From Flavobacterium sp. LC2016-01 (GTDB lineage Bacteria; Bacteroidota; Bacteroidia; Flavobacteriales; Flavobacteriaceae), in NCBI RefSeq assembly GCF_009711135.1, contig NZ_WMIC01000002.1:124001-188000 (forward strand): a DNA stretch of 64,000 nucleotides, read 5' to 3'. The stretch's first letter is position 1, and each line of letters begins with the position of its first letter. Shown here piece by piece: positions 18,495 through 31,075 of this stretch. The notes under the pieces are model-generated. The model was given only the letters and a program-made list of their open reading frames with translations, did no database searches and was not told the origin of the DNA. Both the position numbers and the translations under genes were made by a program.

Positions 18495-21400
18495 TTATTT
18501 CACCACCTCAACCCAGAATCCTTTTGTTCTCGCTAAGAAAGTGTTATCATACATGGCTTCACATTGCAATCCTGGCAAATAATAATTCCCTAAATACGAT
18601 GCATTTAACAGAATTCGGAAAACTTTGGTTTCTCTGGATTTCATTCCGAAGTAGAAATTAGTTCTGTCGTCACGAATATCAATATAATCAGCAGTATTAT
18701 TAACTGCGTCTCCATAATCGGTAAAACGGGTATTTACAATTTCGAATCCAGAAGGTAGAATCTGAGATAATGCAACATTCTGAACACTTTCATTTCTTTG
18801 GTTTTTAATGGTAACCTCAGCAATAAATTCTGTTCCCTGATTAATTTTTGAAACATTGATCACACTTCCTTTTCTGTTTTTGAAAACAATAGAAGCCGAA
18901 ACATCAGTTTGAACAGCATTTTCCTGTCCAATTGGCAATATTCCTGTATTTAACACACGAACATAAACTGTATTATTTTTAATGTTTTTCAACGTAATAC
19001 TATTTGTTCCGCTTGCAGTAGGCAAACTGCGGTCAGCGATTGTTTTTTGAGTGTTTATCGTTTCTCCCTTGCCGTTTTTACTAAACTGAATATTGATTCC
19101 TTTTGGACCATTACCTATTGCAAATTTCGACATCGAATACAAACAATAAGCCGTAGTCTGTGTGCTCATCCATTGATTCGCTGACATTTCTTTAGCTAAT
19201 TTTGTAGCCGTTGTAAATGCTTTTTGTTTTTGTCCCAAAAGCAGTAATGTTTCTAAAGCCATTGCACGGTTTCTTTCACTAGAGCCATAATAGTAATAAC
19301 TATATCCATCTGAATCGCCTTCAATACTTGTTGACAAGAACAAACTTTGTCCAGCCGATTTTTGACCTGCTAAAACATAAGCAGCCGCCAATCGAAGTTT
19401 ACTTTCGTTCGAAATTCCTTTTGTTTCACGCAATCTGTTCATTGACGATAAATCGGCGTTTCCTGCTAAAGCCAGAGTATATAATCTATAAGCTTGAGCC
19501 AGATCGTTGCCATATTTAGGTTCAAAACGCCATTGTTTTGCTTCTTTTTGCTGATAGGAAAGCCATTTTGATTTGAAATTAATTGGAAGGACATATCCTT
19601 TTTTCTCGGCTTCAATTAAGAAATGTCCAGCGTAAGATGTTCCCCAGTCATCTGCTATTGCATTTCCTTGCCAATACGGCATCCCACCATTAGACAATTG
19701 GAAATTTCCTAGTCTTGCAATTCCTGCTGTAACATTCTTTTGAATTAATCCTTTACGAACAGCGTCAATATCAGCAACATCTCCTAAATACAATTGTGGG
19801 AAAACAGACGAAGTTGTCTGCTCAACACAGCCATGCGGATACTGAATTAAAAACTGCATTCTTCCGTTCAAATTCATTGAAGGCATTGACGAAACTTCTA
19901 ATCTGGCTTTATTGCTTCCGGCTACTCCAAATGTTTTCCACGAAAGTGTTTTTGTACTGTTTGGAGCCAAAATAACATCCGTAAAAGTACTTGTAACCGG
20001 ATTCGGATTTGTCATGTCAATTTCGACATCATAACTTGATTTTTCATTTCCCGAAGTTGCGATAACCTGAACTTTTGCTATTCCTGTTGCTGCACCAACG
20101 ACCAAATTAAAATAGGCCATTTTTTCGTCAGGCGAAGTAAAACTTAATGATTGTGTTGCGCTTCCCATTACTTTTAAACCATTACTAGTTTTAATCTGAA
20201 CCGAAACATTTTTAATATTATTCTCTGTTGCAAAAACAGTAACCGGAATTGTTACTTTTTCTGAAGGCGAAATTTTTCTCGGCAACGATGCCAAAACCAT
20301 CAACGGACTTTTAACTGGAGTTGCTTTTTCAACACTTCCGTAAGCGCTTGTATTTGCATCACCAGCGACAACCATAGTTCTCACAGAACCAATGTATTTT
20401 GGCAATTTTAACTGATGCGATTTTGTTTGTCCTTTTTCTAATTTAAATGGTCCGTAATACAATACAACTGGCTTAAAGCGGTTTGCTTTTTTAGCTTTCC
20501 CGCCTCCTAAATCCTGATCTCCACCAATACTGAAAATTTGATTTATTTTTCCGCCGTAAGCACCAATGACATCATCATAAACGTCCCAAGTTTTTACTCC
20601 TAAAGCTTCACGAACATAAAAACTGTCCCAGGCATTAGGTGTTTTAAAACGAGTTAAATCCAAAAGCCCTTCATCAACAACGGCAATTGTATACGTCATT
20701 TCTTTACCTGATTTCTCTCCCACTTTTACCGTAAACGGCTGTTCTGGTTTCAAAACATCCGGCATATTAATAGTTGGTGCCTGAATCGTGTTTTTGTCTA
20801 CAACTTCAATCGGAACAATTCCATACATACGAATTGGCGAATCATTTTTAGTTGATGCATGAGGCTGTAATAATGTAATATTAAAATACACATTTGGCGC
20901 CATCGCTCCGGTAATTGGAACTTCAACTTTTGTTTCTCCCTGTTTTGTTTTTGCCCAAAGTGTCTGAACCACTTTTGATCCATTTTCGATTGAAATCAAA
21001 GCGCGTCCGCCTTCACTTGAAGGAAAAGAAATTTGTGCTTTTTCACCAACGGCATAGTTCTTTTTATCAGTAGAAAACACCAGCATATTAGCTGTAGAAG
21101 CATCTCTGTTTCGCGTTTTTCCAGACCAGATTGGCCAGTCAATATTTACCGTTAAAGCTGTTGCGTGTCCATCTGCAGTATCTGAAACACGAATTAAATA
21201 ACGTCCCCACTCTTCATCGGTTAAAGAAAACTGAACACTTCCTTTTCCACTTGAATCCGTATTTACTACAAAGGTTTTATACGAAGTTGTAGCATTCGAT
21301 GAATTATAATTTGATAAATTATCGCTTGAAGCATCCCACCACCAGCGCCAGTCTACTTTAAACACTTTTACTTCTAAGTTTCGTACTGATTTTGGTCTTC

Positions 21401-24164
21401 CGTTTTCATCAACTGTAACAATATCAAAACGATTATTCGTTCTGGTTTCAAGCATATTGTATTTGTTTAATTCTGGAGATTTAATTCCGACATACGTTTT
21501 ATACGGAGAATAAGTGGTTGACATAACATCAGTACTAAAATCACCTCCTTCTTCATACACTTTTGTGATGAACGAAGCGCGAAGCATTCCCGGCGCCTGA
21601 CCTTGCAATTTTGGCTGAATATTTACCGATGCTTTTCCGTTTTCATTTAATTTTCCGGAGAAAACATTAATTTCTTCGGTGCTGAATTGACGTACCAAAT
21701 CATCAAAACTATATTTCTCATAACCTTTGAATGTTGTTGCTTGTTGCGAAAATTTAGCCTGCATTTCTACATTTAAATTTTTAGCAATCGCACCGTGAAG
21801 CCAAGTCACTTCAAGATTATCGGTATTAGGATAAGATGAAGAAAGGGTTTTTCTGGTAAACGTATTTTTGATTTTTAAACGGTTTGGTTTAATCGTTTCA
21901 ATCTTGATGCTTTTATAAAATTTTGCTCCGCCAACACTTACCATCGCTTCCCAATTTCCTGTTGGTGCATCTTGATTTGTAGGAACCGTGAAAGCATAAT
22001 GATTTAGTTCATTTGTTTTTTGAACTGTTTGATAAACCGTTTTTCCGTTCGGGTCATTTAATCTGAATTTAATTGGATGTGATTTTGGCAATTTGTTAGA
22101 GGCATCATTTAAAATGAAAGACAAATACAAATTATCGCCCGGACGCCAAACGCCTCGTTCTCCATAAATAAATCCTTTTAAGCCTTTTTGAAGCGTCTCC
22201 CCAGCAACATCAAAATTACTCACGGACAACGAAAGTCCGTCATCAAGTTTTACATAAGTGGATTGCTGGCCCAAAGTTACAATTGCAAAATAAGCGAATT
22301 TATCCAGTTGAAAAGATGCAATTCCTTCACTGCTGGTTGCTTGCGTTCCTATTTTTTGTTGTTGAAAATTGTATAAATCAATTCTTGCATTCGAAACTGG
22401 TTCTGTCGTAACAATATTGTTTACAGCAAACACATACGATTTATTTTCTCCTCGTTTAGCAATAACACCCAAATCTGTTGCTAAAATATTGGTTGTTATT
22501 TTAGAGTTGTAATAATACGAACTTGAACAAGGATCTTGGCTTTCTCTCCACTCATAATCATCATAATAATAATCGTCGTACGAGTTGCCGCTGTAGTTTA
22601 CGTCATTTTCATCAACCTCTTCTTCCTCTTCATCGTTTTCATCGCCGTCTGAAGTTGCACATTTATAAAGTGAATATTTCTTTTTAAAGAGAAATTCAAC
22701 TCTATAAATCGCTCCCGGTTCTGGAGTAATTAATTTGGATAAATCCAATGCAAAAGTGTTCCATTTACTCGGATTTATAAGTTTGCTTTCAATTAAATTC
22801 AGTGTTGTTTTTGCGACAGGCTGTGCGACTTTCTTAAGATTTTGGCCTCCGTTTAATTCATTGTATTGAAGAAACTGCAAGATATTATTCTTGTAGATTT
22901 TATAAACTTTCACATCAACAGCGCTCAAGTTTACTGCTTCAAAATTTAATTTCAAATTGTTTGAACTTGGCAGAATTGTTCCATTTTTAATAAAGCGGAC
23001 ATTGGGTTTTATCTGATCAAAAGAAATTTTCTCGGTAAAGTTCGCCTCCAGTTTTTTGCCGTATTGGCTCTCAATTCCCTGAAAAACCTCAAGCGTCAAA
23101 TCTCCAACGACAATCTCATCAGAAGCTGTTTCTTCATTTTGAACCACTTCTACAGGTTCATCTACTACCGCGGCAGCACTATCTACAACAACTGCTGCAG
23201 AATCTACCAATGAAACTGCTGTTTCTTCTACAGCAACCGGATTCGGCTTTTCTTTTTTAGCTTCCTTTTCATTATTAAAATAAACTTTCAACAGATTTCC
23301 TTGCGTAGAAAATTTTAAATTATTGGTATTTTGAATTGAAACTAGACCTTTAAAGTCCTGGCCTTTTTCCAGAGGTTCTGAGAAATTAATCGAAACCGAT
23401 TGATTATTTCCATCTGGAACTTCAACTTTTATGATCTTAAATTCGTTTATGTTAGTAATCGGGAAATCGATTTGTCCTTTCTGATCAATATCAAAATCGC
23501 TTCCATCGTATAAAATTTCAAGATTTGATGCTTCAGAATAACGTTGAATACTATCAATGATGAAATTGAATTCTTTGCCGAATCCTGATTTTTTCTCAAA
23601 CTTAACTTTAAGATTATTTCCTTTTTGTTTTGCTAAAACTAATTTCTTAGCAGTTTCAACATCAATATTATCAGCCGTTTTTAAAACACAGTTCAAATAT
23701 TGATATTCTTTACTGTACGACTGAATATCGGCAGTATTGATAGTAAAATCCTGTTTTATTGTTTTGACTGTAAAGTTGAATTCAGAAAGTGCCGCCTCTT
23801 TCTCTTTCGGAAGTGTAATAAGTTTATTCAACTTCAAAGTCACCTGATATTCTGTACCAGGCTTCAGCTTTTTTTCTGGAATAAAAGCAATTGTATTTGG
23901 CGAAAGCGCCACCACTTTTCCGTCAACGCTTGGCGAAATATCAAATAAATCGCTGTCTAAAACCTGATTGGCTTTCCACTCTTTTTTATCAAAAGCCAAA
24001 ACCACCCTAATATCTGATTCCGACGAGACTATTCCCCCTGTGAAACTGACTATATACTCTTTAAATAATGAAAAATCAGAATTGAAATCGGCTGCTGATT
24101 TTCTGCCGCAAGATTGAAAAATAAAAAACACACAAAACACGAGAACTAATCCTTTTGCTTTCAC
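18495..24164 (-). CDS. Bacterial alpha-2-macroglobulin lipoprotein with thioester motif
   Basis: An 1889-residue giant lipoprotein (lipobox FIFQSC, Cys19). The order is an N-terminal Ig-like region, successive MG domains, the bait region and A2M domain, then the thioester domain with PHGCVEQTT near residue 1445 (CxEQ retained) and a terpenoid-cyclase-like alpha-barrel and C-terminal receptor-like domain. Such proteins trap invading proteases in the periplasm by covalent linkage. Two low-complexity insertions are odd: Ala/Val/Glu-rich near 315-350 and an Asp/Glu/Tyr tract near 505-545. It is paired with pbpC downstream, as in enterobacteria. Confidence 0.93.
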   Translation of the reverse strand: MKAKGLVLVFCVFFIFQSCGRKSAADFNSDFSLFKEYIVSFTGGIVSSESDIRVVLAFDKKEWKANQVLDSDLFDISPSVDGKVVALSPNTIAFIPEKKLKPGTEYQVTLKLNKLITLPKEKEAALSEFNFTVKTIKQDFTINTADIQSYSKEYQYLNCVLKTADNIDVETAKKLVLAKQKGNNLKVKFEKKSGFGKEFNFIIDSIQRYSEASNLEILYDGSDFDIDQKGQIDFPITNINEFKIIKVEVPDGNNQSVSINFSEPLEKGQDFKGLVSIQNTNNLKFSTQGNLLKVYFNNEKEAKKEKPNPVAVEETAVSLVDSAAVVVDSAAAVVDEPVEVVQNEETASDEIVVGDLTLEVFQGIESQYGKKLEANFTEKISFDQIKPNVRFIKNGTILPSSNNLKLNFEAVNLSAVDVKVYKIYKNNILQFLQYNELNGGQNLKKVAQPVAKTTLNLIESKLINPSKWNTFALDLSKLITPEPGAIYRVEFLFKKKYSLYKCATSDGDENDEEEEEVDENDVNYSGNSYDDYYYDDYEWRESQDPCSSSYYYNSKITTNILATDLGVIAKRGENKSYVFAVNNIVTTEPVSNARIDLYNFQQQKIGTQATSSEGIASFQLDKFAYFAIVTLGQQSTYVKLDDGLSLSVSNFDVAGETLQKGLKGFIYGERGVWRPGDNLYLSFILNDASNKLPKSHPIKFRLNDPNGKTVYQTVQKTNELNHYAFTVPTNQDAPTGNWEAMVSVGGAKFYKSIKIETIKPNRLKIKNTFTRKTLSSSYPNTDNLEVTWLHGAIAKNLNVEMQAKFSQQATTFKGYEKYSFDDLVRQFSTEEINVFSGKLNENGKASVNIQPKLQGQAPGMLRASFITKVYEEGGDFSTDVMSTTYSPYKTYVGIKSPELNKYNMLETRTNNRFDIVTVDENGRPKSVRNLEVKVFKVDWRWWWDASSDNLSNYNSSNATTSYKTFVVNTDSSGKGSVQFSLTDEEWGRYLIRVSDTADGHATALTVNIDWPIWSGKTRNRDASTANMLVFSTDKKNYAVGEKAQISFPSSEGGRALISIENGSKVVQTLWAKTKQGETKVEVPITGAMAPNVYFNITLLQPHASTKNDSPIRMYGIVPIEVVDKNTIQAPTINMPDVLKPEQPFTVKVGEKSGKEMTYTIAVVDEGLLDLTRFKTPNAWDSFYVREALGVKTWDVYDDVIGAYGGKINQIFSIGGDQDLGGGKAKKANRFKPVVLYYGPFKLEKGQTKSHQLKLPKYIGSVRTMVVAGDANTSAYGSVEKATPVKSPLMVLASLPRKISPSEKVTIPVTVFATENNIKNVSVQIKTSNGLKVMGSATQSLSFTSPDEKMAYFNLVVGAATGIAKVQVIATSGNEKSSYDVEIDMTNPNPVTSTFTDVILAPNSTKTLSWKTFGVAGSNKARLEVSSMPSMNLNGRMQFLIQYPHGCVEQTTSSVFPQLYLGDVADIDAVRKGLIQKNVTAGIARLGNFQLSNGGMPYWQGNAIADDWGTSYAGHFLIEAEKKGYVLPINFKSKWLSYQQKEAKQWRFEPKYGNDLAQAYRLYTLALAGNADLSSMNRLRETKGISNESKLRLAAAYVLAGQKSAGQSLFLSTSIEGDSDGYSYYYYGSSERNRAMALETLLLLGQKQKAFTTATKLAKEMSANQWMSTQTTAYCLYSMSKFAIGNGPKGINIQFSKNGKGETINTQKTIADRSLPTASGTNSITLKNIKNNTVYVRVLNTGILPIGQENAVQTDVSASIVFKNRKGSVINVSKINQGTEFIAEVTIKNQRNESVQNVALSQILPSGFEIVNTRFTDYGDAVNNTADYIDIRDDRTNFYFGMKSRETKVFRILLNASYLGNYYLPGLQCEAMYDNTFLARTKGFWVEVVK

Positions 24165-25424: not shown

Positions 25425-26390
25425 ATGGAAAGAAAATACAAAATAACAATTCCGGAACCATGCCATGAAAATTGGGACGAAATGACGCCAAATGAAAATG
25501 GCCGATTTTGTATAAGCTGTTCTAAAACCGTTGTTGATTTTACTTTGATGCTTCCTAATGAAATTCAGCATTTTTTTGTTCAAAATCAAAACAATAAAAT
25601 TTGTGGAAGATTTAAAAAATCACAATTAGATACTATTATAATTCAAATTCCGAGTGCCGTTTTATATTCACAAACGCATTATCACAAAATGTTTTTATTG
25701 GCATTGTTTATTGCTATGGGAACTACTTTGTTTAGCTGTCAGGATAAAGATGGAAATAAACAAAAGATCGACAAAGTTGAAGTAATTGAAGATTCTTTGG
25801 TTACAAAAACTCCTCATAAAGAAGAGATTGCAGTAAGCAATGATACAACTCCAGAAACAAAATATACAAAACGCAAAAGTCGTTCACTACTCAAAAAAGA
25901 AAAATTCTTTTCCTTCACAGAAACAAAACCCGCAGAAACAATGCCTTACGCTGAAATTTATGAAGACACTACAGTTTATGGAGGCGTAGGGATTGATGTT
26001 TTACCTGATTATCCGGGGGGAATTGAACTATTTTATGATGTTTTGAGAAAAGAATTCAAAATCCCTAAAGATTTAAAAAAATCAACCGGAGTAATTAAAA
26101 TGTCATTTGTGATTGAAAAAAATGGAAGTTTAGATGATGTCAAAATAATTGAAGACCTTGGTTTTGGAACTGGGGAAGAAGCAAAACGGGTTCTCGAAAA
26201 ATCCAGAAATTGGACTCCGGGCGAAACCATGGGAAAGAAAGTTAGAACTTATTACAATCTACCTATCACACTTGAACTCGACACTTTGAATCCGGAAAAA
26301 AGAAAAAGAAAATTTTCAAAAATTACCTCCATGCAAATTTTTAAAACCGGAGAGAGTAAGGAAGAAACAGAATTAAATTTAAGTCAATAA
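25425..26390 (+). CDS. TonB-C protein with N-terminal Cys-rich domain, paralogue 1
   Basis: 321 residues. Residues 1-65 form a compact domain with C13-H14, C29-x2-C32 and C60 (PEPCHENW, GRFCISCSK, KICGRF), likely zinc-binding. A hydrophobic helix (89-104) ends in TLFSC, a lipobox-like Cys105. A charged linker then leads to a TonB C-terminal domain (about 195-275: DYPGGIELFYDV, FVIEKNGSLDDVKI, NWTPGETMGKKV). Topology would be N-terminus in the cytosol and TonB domain in the periplasm. It is the first of three adjacent paralogues. An Arg/Lys-rich extension of about 40 residues follows the TonB domain only here. Function unknown. Confidence 0.75.
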   Translation: MERKYKITIPEPCHENWDEMTPNENGRFCISCSKTVVDFTLMLPNEIQHFFVQNQNNKICGRFKKSQLDTIIIQIPSAVLYSQTHYHKMFLLALFIAMGTTLFSCQDKDGNKQKIDKVEVIEDSLVTKTPHKEEIAVSNDTTPETKYTKRKSRSLLKKEKFFSFTETKPAETMPYAEIYEDTTVYGGVGIDVLPDYPGGIELFYDVLRKEFKIPKDLKKSTGVIKMSFVIEKNGSLDDVKIIEDLGFGTGEEAKRVLEKSRNWTPGETMGKKVRTYYNLPITLELDTLNPEKRKRKFSKITSMQIFKTGESKEETELNLSQ

Positions 26391-26436
26391 ATAATTGCTC
26401 CCAATACGTTTTAAAAATCAATTAATTGGTATGTAT

Positions 26437-26468
26437 TTTTTATTACATTTAATTTCTAATATCTGAAT
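26437..26468 (+). promoter_or_regulatory. Duplicated leader of TonB-like paralogue 2
   Basis: Copy of 25393-25424 with one substitution; it precedes the start of paralogue 2 directly. Paralogue 3 has no such leader. Confidence 0.6.
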
Positions 26469-27302
26469 ATGGAAAGAAATCTTAAAATAACAATTCCGGA
26501 ACCATGCCATGAAAATTGGGACGAAATGACGCCAAATGAAAATGGCCGTTTTTGTATGAGCTGTTCTAAAACCGTTGTTGATTTTACGTCCATGCTTCCG
26601 CAAGAAGTTCAGCATTTTTTTATTCAGAATCAAAACAATACTATTTGCGGAAGATTTAAAAATGAACAATTAGAAACAATCACATTTCAAATTCCGAGTC
26701 GGATTGTTTATTCTCAAACACATTATCATAAGATGTTTTTACTGGCTTTATTCATTGCTATGGGAACAACTTTATTTAGTTGTCAAGACAACGATGGAAA
26801 CAAAAAGAAAATTGCTTCTATAGAAGTTGTTGATAATGCAGAACAAAATCAAGAAGAAAGTGAAGCTCCTTCTGTATGTTATGGACATCAATTCGAATCT
26901 AAAAGAGCAAACTCAAAAAAAACTAGACAGAAATTTGTAATGGGAAATCTAATTGCTCCAAATTCTATTCAAACTGGAAGTTTTAACTATCACCCAATAT
27001 ACAATTCAACTGATTTAGATATTTCTCCAGTTCCAGAAAATGGAATGAAAAAATTCGTTGAGTTTTTTAAACAAAACTATGTTATCTCAAAACCTACAGA
27101 AAAATCTAAAGAAAGAGCTTTTGTTGTATTTGTTGTAGAAGAAGATGGTACTTTAAGCAATTTCAACATCGTTAGAAATACATCAAAAGAAATTGGAGAA
27201 GAAGCCATTAGAGTTTTGAAAACAGCTCCAAAATGGATTCCCGGAAAGCTTAACGGCAAAATTGTCCGTTCTTCTTATATTTTACCAATTACAATTAAAT
27301 AA
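26469..27302 (+). CDS. TonB-C protein with N-terminal Cys-rich domain, paralogue 2
   Basis: 277 residues. The first 105 residues are nearly identical to paralogue 1, with the same C13, C29, C32, C60 and the helix ending in LFSC. The linker then differs completely (EQNQEESEAPSVCYGH and a basic stretch) before a divergent TonB-C domain (about 190-277; FVVEEDGTLSNFNIV, KWIPGKLNGKIV). The canonical YPGG of the TonB domain is replaced by VPENG. Its stop overlaps the start of paralogue 3 by one base (TAATG), so the two are co-translated. Confidence 0.75.
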   Translation: MERNLKITIPEPCHENWDEMTPNENGRFCMSCSKTVVDFTSMLPQEVQHFFIQNQNNTICGRFKNEQLETITFQIPSRIVYSQTHYHKMFLLALFIAMGTTLFSCQDNDGNKKKIASIEVVDNAEQNQEESEAPSVCYGHQFESKRANSKKTRQKFVMGNLIAPNSIQTGSFNYHPIYNSTDLDISPVPENGMKKFVEFFKQNYVISKPTEKSKERAFVVFVVEEDGTLSNFNIVRNTSKEIGEEAIRVLKTAPKWIPGKLNGKIVRSSYILPITIK

Positions 27303-28186
27303 TGGAAAGAAATCTTAAAATTACAATTCCTGAACCATGCCACGAAAACTGGAACAAAATGACTCCAAATGAAAATGGCCGATTTTGTATGAGCTGTTCT
27401 AAAACTGTTATTGATTTTACGTCAATGCTTCCGGAGGAAATTCAGCATTTTTTTATTCAAAATCAAAGCAATAAAATTTGCGGAAGATTCAAAAAATCGC
27501 AATTAGATTCAATAACCATTCAAATTCCTAATCGTATTTTGTATTCTCAAACTCATTATAGTAAAATGTTTCTTTTAGCATTGTTCATTGCTATGGGAAC
27601 GACTTTGTTTAGCTGTCAAAATAAAGATGGTAAAAAGCAAAAAATTGATAAAGTTGAAGTTGTAACAGATACTGTGGCGAAAGAGCGAATCGTTGTTGGA
27701 GAAACTCCTCTTGATCCAAAAGATACTGCGAAGGCAAATGTACCGCCTCCTCCACCGCCTCCAAAAGTTGATCAGGTAAAATTTGTTAACTCTCCAATTA
27801 ATACTAAAAAAACAAGCACTCAAAAATCAGTAAAAATCAATTGCGAGAAGGCAAAAGGAGAAGAAGAAGATGATGTTGCTTTTGTTACAGGCGCTGTAAT
27901 GCAGACAAATGCAGAGTTCCCGGGCGGTATCGAACAATTCTATAACTTTTTCGCAAAAGAGTTTAAACAACCCGAAAACATTTCTGATTCAAATCTAAAA
28001 ATTAGAATTGCGTTTGCGGTAGAGAAAAATGGCTCAATGTCTTTTTTACAAGCTGATCCAGCTATTGATAAAAGCATAGAAAATGAAATTATCAGAGTTT
28101 TAAAATCTTGTCCAAAATGGCAGCCTGGAGAATCCAATGGAAAAAAAATAAGAATACAATATTCATTGCCAATAACATTACAATAG
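27302..28186 (+). CDS. TonB-C protein with N-terminal Cys-rich domain, paralogue 3
   Basis: 294 residues with the same N-terminal Cys-rich domain and helix ending in LFSC. The periplasmic linker contains a run of seven prolines (PPPPPPPK), as in classical TonB spanning segments, and then EFPGGIEQFYNFF and a TonB-C domain with KWQPGESNGKKI. It starts inside the stop codon of paralogue 2. The triplet shares a nearly constant N-terminal 105 residues but diverged C-terminal parts. No TonB-dependent receptor or ExbB/ExbD is adjacent. Confidence 0.75.
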   Translation: MERNLKITIPEPCHENWNKMTPNENGRFCMSCSKTVIDFTSMLPEEIQHFFIQNQSNKICGRFKKSQLDSITIQIPNRILYSQTHYSKMFLLALFIAMGTTLFSCQNKDGKKQKIDKVEVVTDTVAKERIVVGETPLDPKDTAKANVPPPPPPPKVDQVKFVNSPINTKKTSTQKSVKINCEKAKGEEEDDVAFVTGAVMQTNAEFPGGIEQFYNFFAKEFKQPENISDSNLKIRIAFAVEKNGSMSFLQADPAIDKSIENEIIRVLKSCPKWQPGESNGKKIRIQYSLPITLQ

Positions 28187-30073: not shown

Positions 30074-31075
30074 ATGAAATTATTGCGTTCTACCCTTTTG
30101 CTGTTATTGCTATTGTGTACTTCACATAACTTTGCTCAAATTATTCAAACAACTTTAGACCCAAATCAACTGCCGAAACTTCCATCAAACTGGACTAAAA
30201 AAAATCAGCTGGGTTTTGATATTTCTGAGATTGCTTTTGTGAACTGGAGCGCGGGGGGAACAAGTTCGATTTCTGGATTATTTAAAGGCGAATTTGGAAG
30301 AACTTACGTTAAAGGAAATCATAAGTGGGTAAACGAACTTATTGTTAAATACGGCTTAAATAAACAAGACGGAATTGAATTAAGAAAAACCGATGACGCC
30401 GTTCAATTCAATTCAACTTACGGTTTTAGAAAAGATACCGTTTCAAACTGGTATTACTCTTCAAAATTCAATTTCAATACCCAGTTTACAAACGGTTACA
30501 ATTATCCAAACCGAGACATTGCAATCTCTAAACCTTTTGCACCAGCGTACATTTTCCTTGGAGCTGGAGCTGAGAATTCAAACAAAAAGAAAAACAGAAC
30601 GTTCTATTTCTCTCCAATTACATTAAAGACTACTTTGGTTTTAGATCAATATTTAGCCAATCAAGGATCATTTGGGGTTAAAAAAGCTGTTTATATAGCT
30701 GATCCTGCTGATCCTAATAATCAAATATTGGTTCAGGAAGGCCAGAAAGTAAAAGCCGAATTTGGTATACTTGCTACAGGATATATGAAAACAGAGATTT
30801 ATAAAAACGTTTTTTACGAAAATCGTCTGAGCTTATATACGGATTACTTAAATAAATTTGGAAACGTCGATGTTGATTATGACACCAAATTAGATCTTGT
30901 TGTAAATGCTTACGTTAAAGCAAATATAGGCTTGCATCTTGTTTATGATGACGATATTAAAACCAAAAAAGATGTTATTGACCCAATTACTGGAGCAAAA
31001 TCACAAGTTAACGATGGACCACGAACACAATTACGTCAAGTTCTTGGTGTTGGTTTAGTTTATGCTTTTCAATAA
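30074..31075 (+). CDS. DUF3078 outer-membrane beta-barrel protein
   Basis: 333 residues with a signal peptide (cut after HNFA, about residue 21) and a DUF3078 body: WTKKNQLGFDISEIAFVNWSAGG, then paired amphipathic strands ending in VLGVGLVYAFQ, an aromatic terminal residue typical of outer-membrane barrels. DUF3078 proteins are widespread in Bacteroidetes and of unknown function. The gene follows dxs and ends at a strong hairpin. Confidence 0.85.
   Translation: MKLLRSTLLLLLLLCTSHNFAQIIQTTLDPNQLPKLPSNWTKKNQLGFDISEIAFVNWSAGGTSSISGLFKGEFGRTYVKGNHKWVNELIVKYGLNKQDGIELRKTDDAVQFNSTYGFRKDTVSNWYYSSKFNFNTQFTNGYNYPNRDIAISKPFAPAYIFLGAGAENSNKKKNRTFYFSPITLKTTLVLDQYLANQGSFGVKKAVYIADPADPNNQILVQEGQKVKAEFGILATGYMKTEIYKNVFYENRLSLYTDYLNKFGNVDVDYDTKLDLVVNAYVKANIGLHLVYDDDIKTKKDVIDPITGAKSQVNDGPRTQLRQVLGVGLVYAFQ

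Follow-up and report, generated by a model that had tools for sequence, protein, structure and literature searches.

A four-cysteine domain ahead of a lipobox-ended helix in three tandem TonB-domain proteins of Flavobacterium sp. LC2016-01

Three tandem genes with a common front half

In a 64,000-nucleotide stretch of the genome of Flavobacterium sp. LC2016-01 (RefSeq assembly GCF_009711135.1, contig NZ_WMIC01000002.1, positions 124,001 to 188,000; hereafter the window), three tandem genes (the array) encode proteins in which a cysteine-rich domain, here called the Cys4 domain, is followed by a hydrophobic helix with a lipobox-like end, a linker and a TonB C-terminal domain (Table 1). This architecture, together with the stop-start overlap of copies 2 and 3 and the seven linker prolines of copy 3, had been described in a first-pass annotation made from the sequence alone, and is confirmed by the open reading frames (ORFs) and their translations, by alignment, and by Pfam and fold matches. 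C13-H14, C29-x2-C32, C60 and the helix ending in LFSC are identical in the alignment of the three copies, and residues 1-108 are common to all of them, after which the linkers (around 95-115 residues) and the TonB C-terminal domains diverge. About 87 residues lie ahead of the helix, unlike the short N-region of an ordinary bacterial lipoprotein.

Regarding the exported halves, the Pfam model TonB_C (PF03544) matches copies 1 and 2 above its curated cut-off and copy 3 below it. Residues 201-294 of the AlphaFold2 model of copy 3 have block means of the predicted local distance difference test (pLDDT) of 89-97, and the best Foldseek match of this model in the PDB is 6i97_D, a TonB C-terminal domain bound to FoxA (E 1.3e-3), with which VIA-align superposes 84 residues (Z 8.9, root-mean-square deviation 2.5). 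A TonB domain at the end of each protein is thereby supported by Pfam for copies 1 and 2 and by the fold match for copy 3.

Table 1. Positions in the window of the array genes and of their parts.
Feature	Position	Strand	Evidence
Copy 1, 321 aa: Cys4 domain, helix with lipobox, linker, TonB_C	25425..26390	+	ORF; TonB_C residues 219-282, E 7e-7
Copy 2, 277 aa: architecture as copy 1	26469..27302	+	ORF; TonB_C residues 218-274, E 1.6e-6
Copy 3, 294 aa: architecture as copy 1, proline run in linker	27302..28186	+	TonB_C E 0.0087; TonB C-terminal domain fold Z 8.9
Cys4 domain, copy 1 (residues 1-80; C13, C29, C32, C60)	25425..25664	+	Copy alignment, profile
Cys4 domain, copy 2	26469..26708	+	Copy alignment, profile
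Cys4 domain, copy 3	27302..27541	+	Alignment, relatives; AlphaFold2 block means 80-91, residues 11-70
Helix ending in lipobox LFSC, copy 1 (residues 88-105)	25686..25739	+	Sequence, close-relative alignment A5
Helix and lipobox, copy 2	26730..26783	+	Sequence, close-relative alignment A5
Helix and lipobox, copy 3	27563..27616	+	Sequence, A5; helix 86-102 in AlphaFold2 model
TonB C-terminal domain, copy 1	26079..26270	+	Pfam match
TonB C-terminal domain, copy 2	27120..27290	+	Pfam match
TonB C-terminal domain, copy 3 (model residues 201-294)	27902..28183	+	AlphaFold2 model, PDB fold match
TAATG stop-start overlap, copies 2/3	27300..27304	+	Sequence

Conservation and distribution of the Cys4 domain and its helix

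Among 58 domains less than 60% identical to one another, drawn from one Calothrix domain and from the 224 of 229 distinct ORFs that satisfied E <1e-6 and a minimum of 58 residues, C13, C29 and C32 are each present in all 58 and C60 in 57. H14 occurs in only 28 of them and is not a family feature; of the putative site noticed at first, the four cysteines stand as a conserved set and the histidine does not. A bacterial genome scan seeded with EPCHENW and MER[NK][LY]KIT yielded 186 relatives, of which 80 (78 loci) were kept, from Flavobacterium, Tenacibaculum, Niastella, Chitinophagaceae and others; since EPCHENW was a seed, C13-H14 is partly forced in these loci, the later Bacteroidota profiles being free of both seeds. 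A first Bacteroidota profile matched 53 of 395 sampled genomes and a broader one 55 of 395, in 25 of 170 genera (the window's genome included). Alignment A2 excludes two broken ORFs and L004, the latter being a further family member of the window's genome (C5:414594; C numbers denote its contigs) with no Pfam match. A fifth candidate in this genome, C5:450332 (E 0.009, two internal stops), was dropped; profile A3 did not recover it. A single 568-aa ORF with two Cys4 domains (L019:5995-7701) apparently represents two fused array members.

Phyla beyond Bacteroidota were covered through a plasmid collection, in which a single cyanobacterial match was found, a 107-aa protein of a Calothrix brevissima plasmid (AP018211.1, L168:2447-2770) with the Cys4 pattern, an RSDGT motif and a fifth Cys. 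A query with the L159 domain detected it (E 2e-9), and one with the copy 3 domain did not. The Cys4 domain may, on this match, not be confined to Bacteroidota, and a wider family presumably exists in other phyla. As no signal or membrane segment is visible in the Calothrix protein, its sequence suggests that the domain is able to live in the cytosol.

No credible model for the Cys4 domain was found in Pfam or NCBIfam, in searches that included 36 member domains. The initial observation of a Cys domain ahead of the membrane segment is supported to the extent that these libraries hold no credible match for it. Weak matches to DUF6887 in Pfam (best E 0.013, four members of the 36 domains) and to Maf in NCBIfam (best E 0.0071, five members) were taken as chance; the best Pfam zinc-ribbon score among the 36 was E 0.016, for one member. 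No known anti-sigma or FecR domain occurred among the Pfam and NCBIfam matches listed for the 36 domains, which leaves room for distant similarity. PDB sequence searches gave no convincing chain, the best match of profile A2 being an HMG box (E 0.09, positions 11-28). The structure prediction proposed in the first-pass annotation produced a model of the isolated N-domain (pLDDT 72) and no fold match: Foldseek and VIA-align against the PDB gave nothing weighty for this model, the better N-domain of the full-length model not being searched alone. A zinc finger or iron-sulphur identity was set aside, sequence and fold searches having given no convincing match to either. Nor is the domain mentioned in the open-access literature searched, among the matches listed (titles and starts of abstracts).

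Regarding the helix, alignment A5, whose rows were picked as close relatives (139 were proposed, of which L077:7114-7842 and L074:1642-1965 were excluded), shows a lipobox at the helix end in 103 of its 104 full-length rows, so that the lipobox-like end noticed at first is supported for these. Non-conservation of Cys105 had been named beforehand as speaking against the array's proposed features, and it is found in part: of 142 ORFs, 114 have Cys105, and in many wider relatives an x-[AGS]-Q end resembling a site for signal peptidase I (SPase I) stands in its place. Counted on 77 of 80 diverse representatives (the remainder being too short), the hydrophobic segment leads into a lipobox in 28 and into x-[AGS]-Q in 39, with one or the other in 65; these patterns occur in 23.8% of shuffles of that segment and in 4.9% of windows from mature parts. 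The 12 residues ahead of the helix carry a mean net charge of +1.9 in these diverse relatives. The occurrence of two peptidase types at one position suggests conservation of cleavage and not of a single enzyme; cleavability would have been kept with a change of peptidase between relatives. With regard to these patterns, the helix is probably an internal, cleavable signal peptide.

Signal peptidase II (SPase II) cuts lipoproteins directly before the lipobox Cys. A cut before Cys105 would fall after the helix, so that the Cys4 domain would stay on the helix in the membrane; the release of the Cys-rich domain into the cytosol, as first proposed, is therefore not expected. Surface export of the array proteins through a Capnocytophaga-type signal was considered and rejected, the consensus C-X-K-(D/E)2 being found in none of 103 rows; the lipoprotein export consensus of F. 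johnsoniae, SDDFE (PMC5080379, in part), was not scored. The commonest residues after Cys105 in the 103 A5 rows are (Q/A)-D-K-(D/N/E)-G.

Across Flavobacterium loci, the 20 residues ending at Cys105 are identical at 0.90 (99 copies with a recognised lipobox; likewise with one copy per locus, 53). The gene at 30074, a neighbour of the array, has a plain signal peptide with an identity of 0.63 (52 loci), its mature part being at 0.84. The last 110 residues of the array proteins are at 0.39 between genomes. A lipoprotein of the alpha-2-macroglobulin type, parsed in two sequences, was left unused as a control. In Flavobacterium the helix is more than a generic signal, being far more constrained than the neighbouring signal peptide. 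Between the window copies, helix codons 81-108 have nonsynonymous divergence (dN) of 0.015-0.077 and synonymous divergence (dS) of 0.91, 2.19 and saturated; this combination of high dS and low dN indicates purifying selection, and it argues against recent gene conversion of the helix, as far as 28 codons allow. For codons 1-80 (dN 0.09-0.12, dS 0.28-0.64, the lowest dS being that of copies 1 and 2), purifying selection is less clear than for the helix. In 17 of 72 copies the closest relative of the N-domain comes from its own genome, which holds for the C-terminal part in none of 72; together with the low dS, this makes some conversion possible in codons 1-80. The conserved front half with a diverged remainder, as first described, is upheld by the constraint on the helix and by the variety of exported halves across relatives.

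Exported modules, TonB proteins of the genome and gene neighbourhoods

The search for fusion partners proposed in the first-pass annotation found varied exported parts, mostly other than TonB_C. Among 80 diverse relatives and at a Pfam limit of E 0.001, CarbopepD_reg_2 was matched in 35 and CarboxypepD_reg in 30 (overlapping models), Por_Secre_tail in nine, TonB_C in five and Plug in three; TonB_C is undercounted here because copy 3 itself fails this limit. Tails of the type IX secretion system require an exported mature protein, and their presence on nine of the 80 (Por_Secre_tail) points to an exported mature part. The Pfam-named exported domains are largely those of the TonB-receptor system, and the front half is, as judged by these sequence matches, attached to modules from both sides of the contact between TonB and receptor. 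The motif MGx[VIMPALT] occurs in 30 of the 74 mature parts long enough to be counted among the 80 representatives (200 shuffles: mean 6.3, maximum 12), an excess that is a lead, the pattern having been chosen after looking. Examples of a related pattern, such as LGEVVVTGG, resemble the SusC TonB box DEVVVTG, which follows the PF13715 extension (PMC7782687, in part). Four CarbopepD-type relatives (L118, L143, L148 and L111) share a similar basic-aromatic C-terminal stretch, e.g., FFGRLFHKLGNLFR or FFQRIRNWFRNE.

In two loci (L122:603-1415 and L130:491-1015), the Cys4 domain and the exported protein are in one frame but separated by a stop, after which the latter has a putative start and signal peptide of its own; decay or sequencing error would look alike. 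The fourth Cys of the Cys4 domain is lost in L130.

TonB_C is matched by 12 proteins of the genome, the three array copies included, and ExbD by six, on contigs C6, C7 and C9 and none on C2, the contig of the window. The earlier remark that no ExbB/ExbD gene lies near is borne out for ExbD by the absence of any match on C2, ExbB not having been searched for. The TonB at C7:7534-8334 adjoins two ExbD genes and has a proline-rich linker. The exported halves of copies 1 and 3 are 38% and that of copy 2 is 44% identical to it, and copy 3 has in common with it a proline run followed by KVDQVKFV; in the part before the linker, BLAST found no convincing similarity between the array copies and this TonB. 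As read by eye, ordinary signal peptides are present in five of the other TonB_C proteins, namely C2:336806-337243 (L227), the two genes at C13:111641 and C13:112310 (together C13:111641-112744, L228), C6:97540-98667 (L230) and C5:21883 (incomplete at the stretch end), while C1:606514-607896 (L229) is an ordinary lipoprotein, C2:331552 an M56-like fusion, and C8:55225 has an uncleaved-looking helix. TonB C-terminal domains without an inner-membrane anchor seem, from these sequences, to be common in this genome; L227-L230, having what look like ordinary signals or a lipobox and no such anchor, are unlikely to be ExbBD energy transducers. The unusual feature of the array is the Cys4 domain ahead of the signal.

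The motor-binding motif of the TonB transmembrane helix is given as Ser-X-His-X-Leu-X-Ser (PMC12204202, in part). Residues 88-105 of the three window copies have no His, although this motif, as stated in that part of the source, may not be exact in Bacteroidota TonBs. Neither is there a His in the eight 18-residue helix strings that are most frequent (81 of 103 A5 rows), from which the motif is therefore absent. A His does occur in an 18-residue window in 56 of the 103 rows, that window starting one residue before the helix string (His87 in copies 1 and 2).

With regard to gene neighbourhoods, read by eye except where a Pfam match or an annotation is named, the array keeps its position between tadA-like and dxs genes in 53-55 of 99 loci, with one to five full-length copies (53 loci). 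The recurrent neighbours (tadA-like deaminase, dxs, dGTPase-like and alpha-2-macroglobulin-like genes) appear to be housekeeping or unrelated genes, and a functional operon at the Flavobacterium locus was rejected. In 21 of 28 loci with at least two copies, all class 0 ends precede the class 1 ends, and a proline run is found in 26 of 37 class 1 ends of such loci. Family genes stand beside a gene like those for extracytoplasmic function (ECF) sigma factors and a partner protein in seven of the 99 loci (five from Chitinophagaceae bacteria, Niastella and Paraflavitalea, and two from further genomes); as the neighbours are common to these loci, the seven are counted as a single ancestral site. 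The sigma gene of L077, the one locus tested, matches Pfam Sigma70 regions 2 and 4, and all three partners tested match TonB_C (one below cut-off), two of them also matching CarbopepD_reg_2. On an Aureibacter plasmid, a TonB_C gene with a plain-looking signal is followed by two genes with a Cys4 domain, the TonB_C parts of the first and third genes being 45% identical over 106 residues. A large alpha-2-macroglobulin-like protein is encoded near the array (window 18495-24164, minus strand), and an annotated alpha-2-macroglobulin gene also lies near the Aureibacter genes with a Cys4 domain.

Possible roles and comparison with known systems

From the architecture, distribution and conservation of the front half, we infer a topology, a metal site, a cleavage and a signalling role for the array proteins. 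The reading favoured here, with a probability of roughly 45%, is that the family defined by this front half consists of membrane-spanning regulators or sensors with an exported TonB-system module and not of ExbBD energy transducers. The first ~75 residues would fold in the cytosol as a small four-Cys domain, most likely a zinc site, and the internal signal peptide would insert with its N-terminus inside. In the array clade, SPase II would probably cut at the lipobox, so that the TonB C-terminal domain ends up in the envelope with a lipid anchor, and the Cys4 domain would stay in the inner membrane on its helix, which is unusually conserved. The front half of relatives would export a SusC-type CarbopepD_reg domain, often with a TonB-box-like motif, or a Plug domain, often by way of an SPase I-like site. 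Like anti-sigma factors or other regulators that span the membrane, such proteins would most likely regulate or sense, across the inner membrane, the traffic of TonB and TonB-dependent receptors.

Several points weigh against this regulator or sensor reading. If cleavage releases the exported module, permanent sensing would need a further step. Neither cleavage motif is found in 12 of 77 relatives, no segment reaching a mean hydropathy of 1.5 in 10 of 80, and the sequences had been viewed before the MG motif and the cleavage-site patterns were drawn up. The stretch after Cys105 is also lysine-rich in the Flavobacterium copies, so that charge is no proof of topology there. The conservation of the Cys is partly a matter of ascertainment, as the profiles used to find relatives include them. 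No Cys4 match was found in five of 24 sampled genomes of the same genus, which indicates that the family is dispensable, and no regulatory neighbour or sigma gene is evident by eye at the Flavobacterium locus.

Alternatively, the Cys4 domain could be a pro-region of the precursor that governs its targeting, timing or folding at Sec during export and is then discarded without a signalling role, the cargos acting alone in the envelope. It precedes a signal sequence on several unrelated cargos, as would suit such a role, and both the Aureibacter plasmid, with its plain-signal TonB_C protein beside two Cys4 genes (45% identity of first and third), and the separate ORFs of L122 and L130, ambiguous as these are between a genuine split and decay or sequencing error, are consistent with it. 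This is nevertheless rather unlikely, considering that a related domain exists in a cyanobacterium without a signal peptide, that the helix is held at 0.90 identity vs. 0.63 for the neighbouring signal peptide, and that six other TonB_C proteins are apparently exported with ordinary signals (by eye), so that export of TonB_C does not need the Cys4 domain.

A variant closer to the favoured regulator or sensor is that one precursor gives two proteins, SPase I or II sending the TonB-system module to the envelope and the Cys4 metal domain, on a sequence-specific helix at the inner face of the inner membrane, reporting export or TonB engagement; we hold it to be unlikely. It is still more doubtful that the array proteins are normal TonB energy transducers to which a cytosolic domain has been added and in which an uncleaved helix serves as inner-membrane anchor, with coupling to ExbB/ExbD. 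The predicted intact TonB fold of copy 3, the long linkers (around 95-115 residues) and the proline run with KVDQVKFV as in the ExbD-linked TonB would fit a transducer, but the lipobox in 103 of 104 A5 rows with SPase I-like ends elsewhere, the absence of Ser-X-His-X-Leu-X-Ser (as given in part of PMC12204202) from the eight commonest helix strings, and a front part not convincingly similar to that of the ExbD-linked TonB argue against it. That the conserved front half reflects only gene conversion between tandem copies, with no function of its own, is very improbable: same-genome nearest relatives of the N-domain (17/72 vs. 0/72 for the C-terminal part) and the dS of 0.28 between copies 1 and 2 over codons 1-80 go in its direction, but amino-acid change in the helix codons is slight despite a high or saturated dS, and distant relatives still have the four Cys.

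A domain with no credible match in the Pfam and NCBIfam libraries searched is present in about one in seven of the sampled Bacteroidota genomes, N-terminal in the proteins seen, typically before an export signal and often with a TonB-related part behind it. If the Cys4 family senses or controls the TonB system, it would add a regulatory layer to nutrient uptake in a TonB-dependent phylum. The array also suggests that some TonB-domain proteins of Bacteroidota are not energy transducers.

Among known systems, TonB energy transducers (PF03544) are alike in the exported half and in the fold of the copy 3 TonB domain, while the array proteins differ by an unrelated front half made up of the Cys4 domain and the lipobox helix. 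Regarding the SusC-type extension with its TonB box (PF13715), 35 of the 80 relatives match, several of them then showing LGEVV- or MGEVV-like motifs; unlike SusC-type proteins, these relatives have the Cys4 domain ahead of the signal peptide, and no receptor barrel family is found among the Pfam matches of the 80. FecR-type anti-sigma regulators combine a cytosolic regulatory domain, one helix and an exported part of the TonB/receptor system, a layout analogous to that proposed for the array proteins; the array family differs by the signal-peptidase-like site after the helix, the lack, in the domains scanned, of a Pfam match to anti-sigma or FecR domains, and the lack, by eye, of a sigma gene at the Flavobacterium locus. 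The partners of the ECF-like sigma genes (e.g., L077:3684-5183 and L079:308-1747) have the same exported modules, CarbopepD_reg_2 and TonB_C, and adjoin family genes, but their N-terminal region is different and is not marked by the Cys4 profile. Finally, a precedent for the mechanism only, in an unrelated protein and organism, is offered by iRhom2 of animals, a membrane protein that is cut by signal peptidase and for which a signalling role is proposed (PMC7618786, in part).

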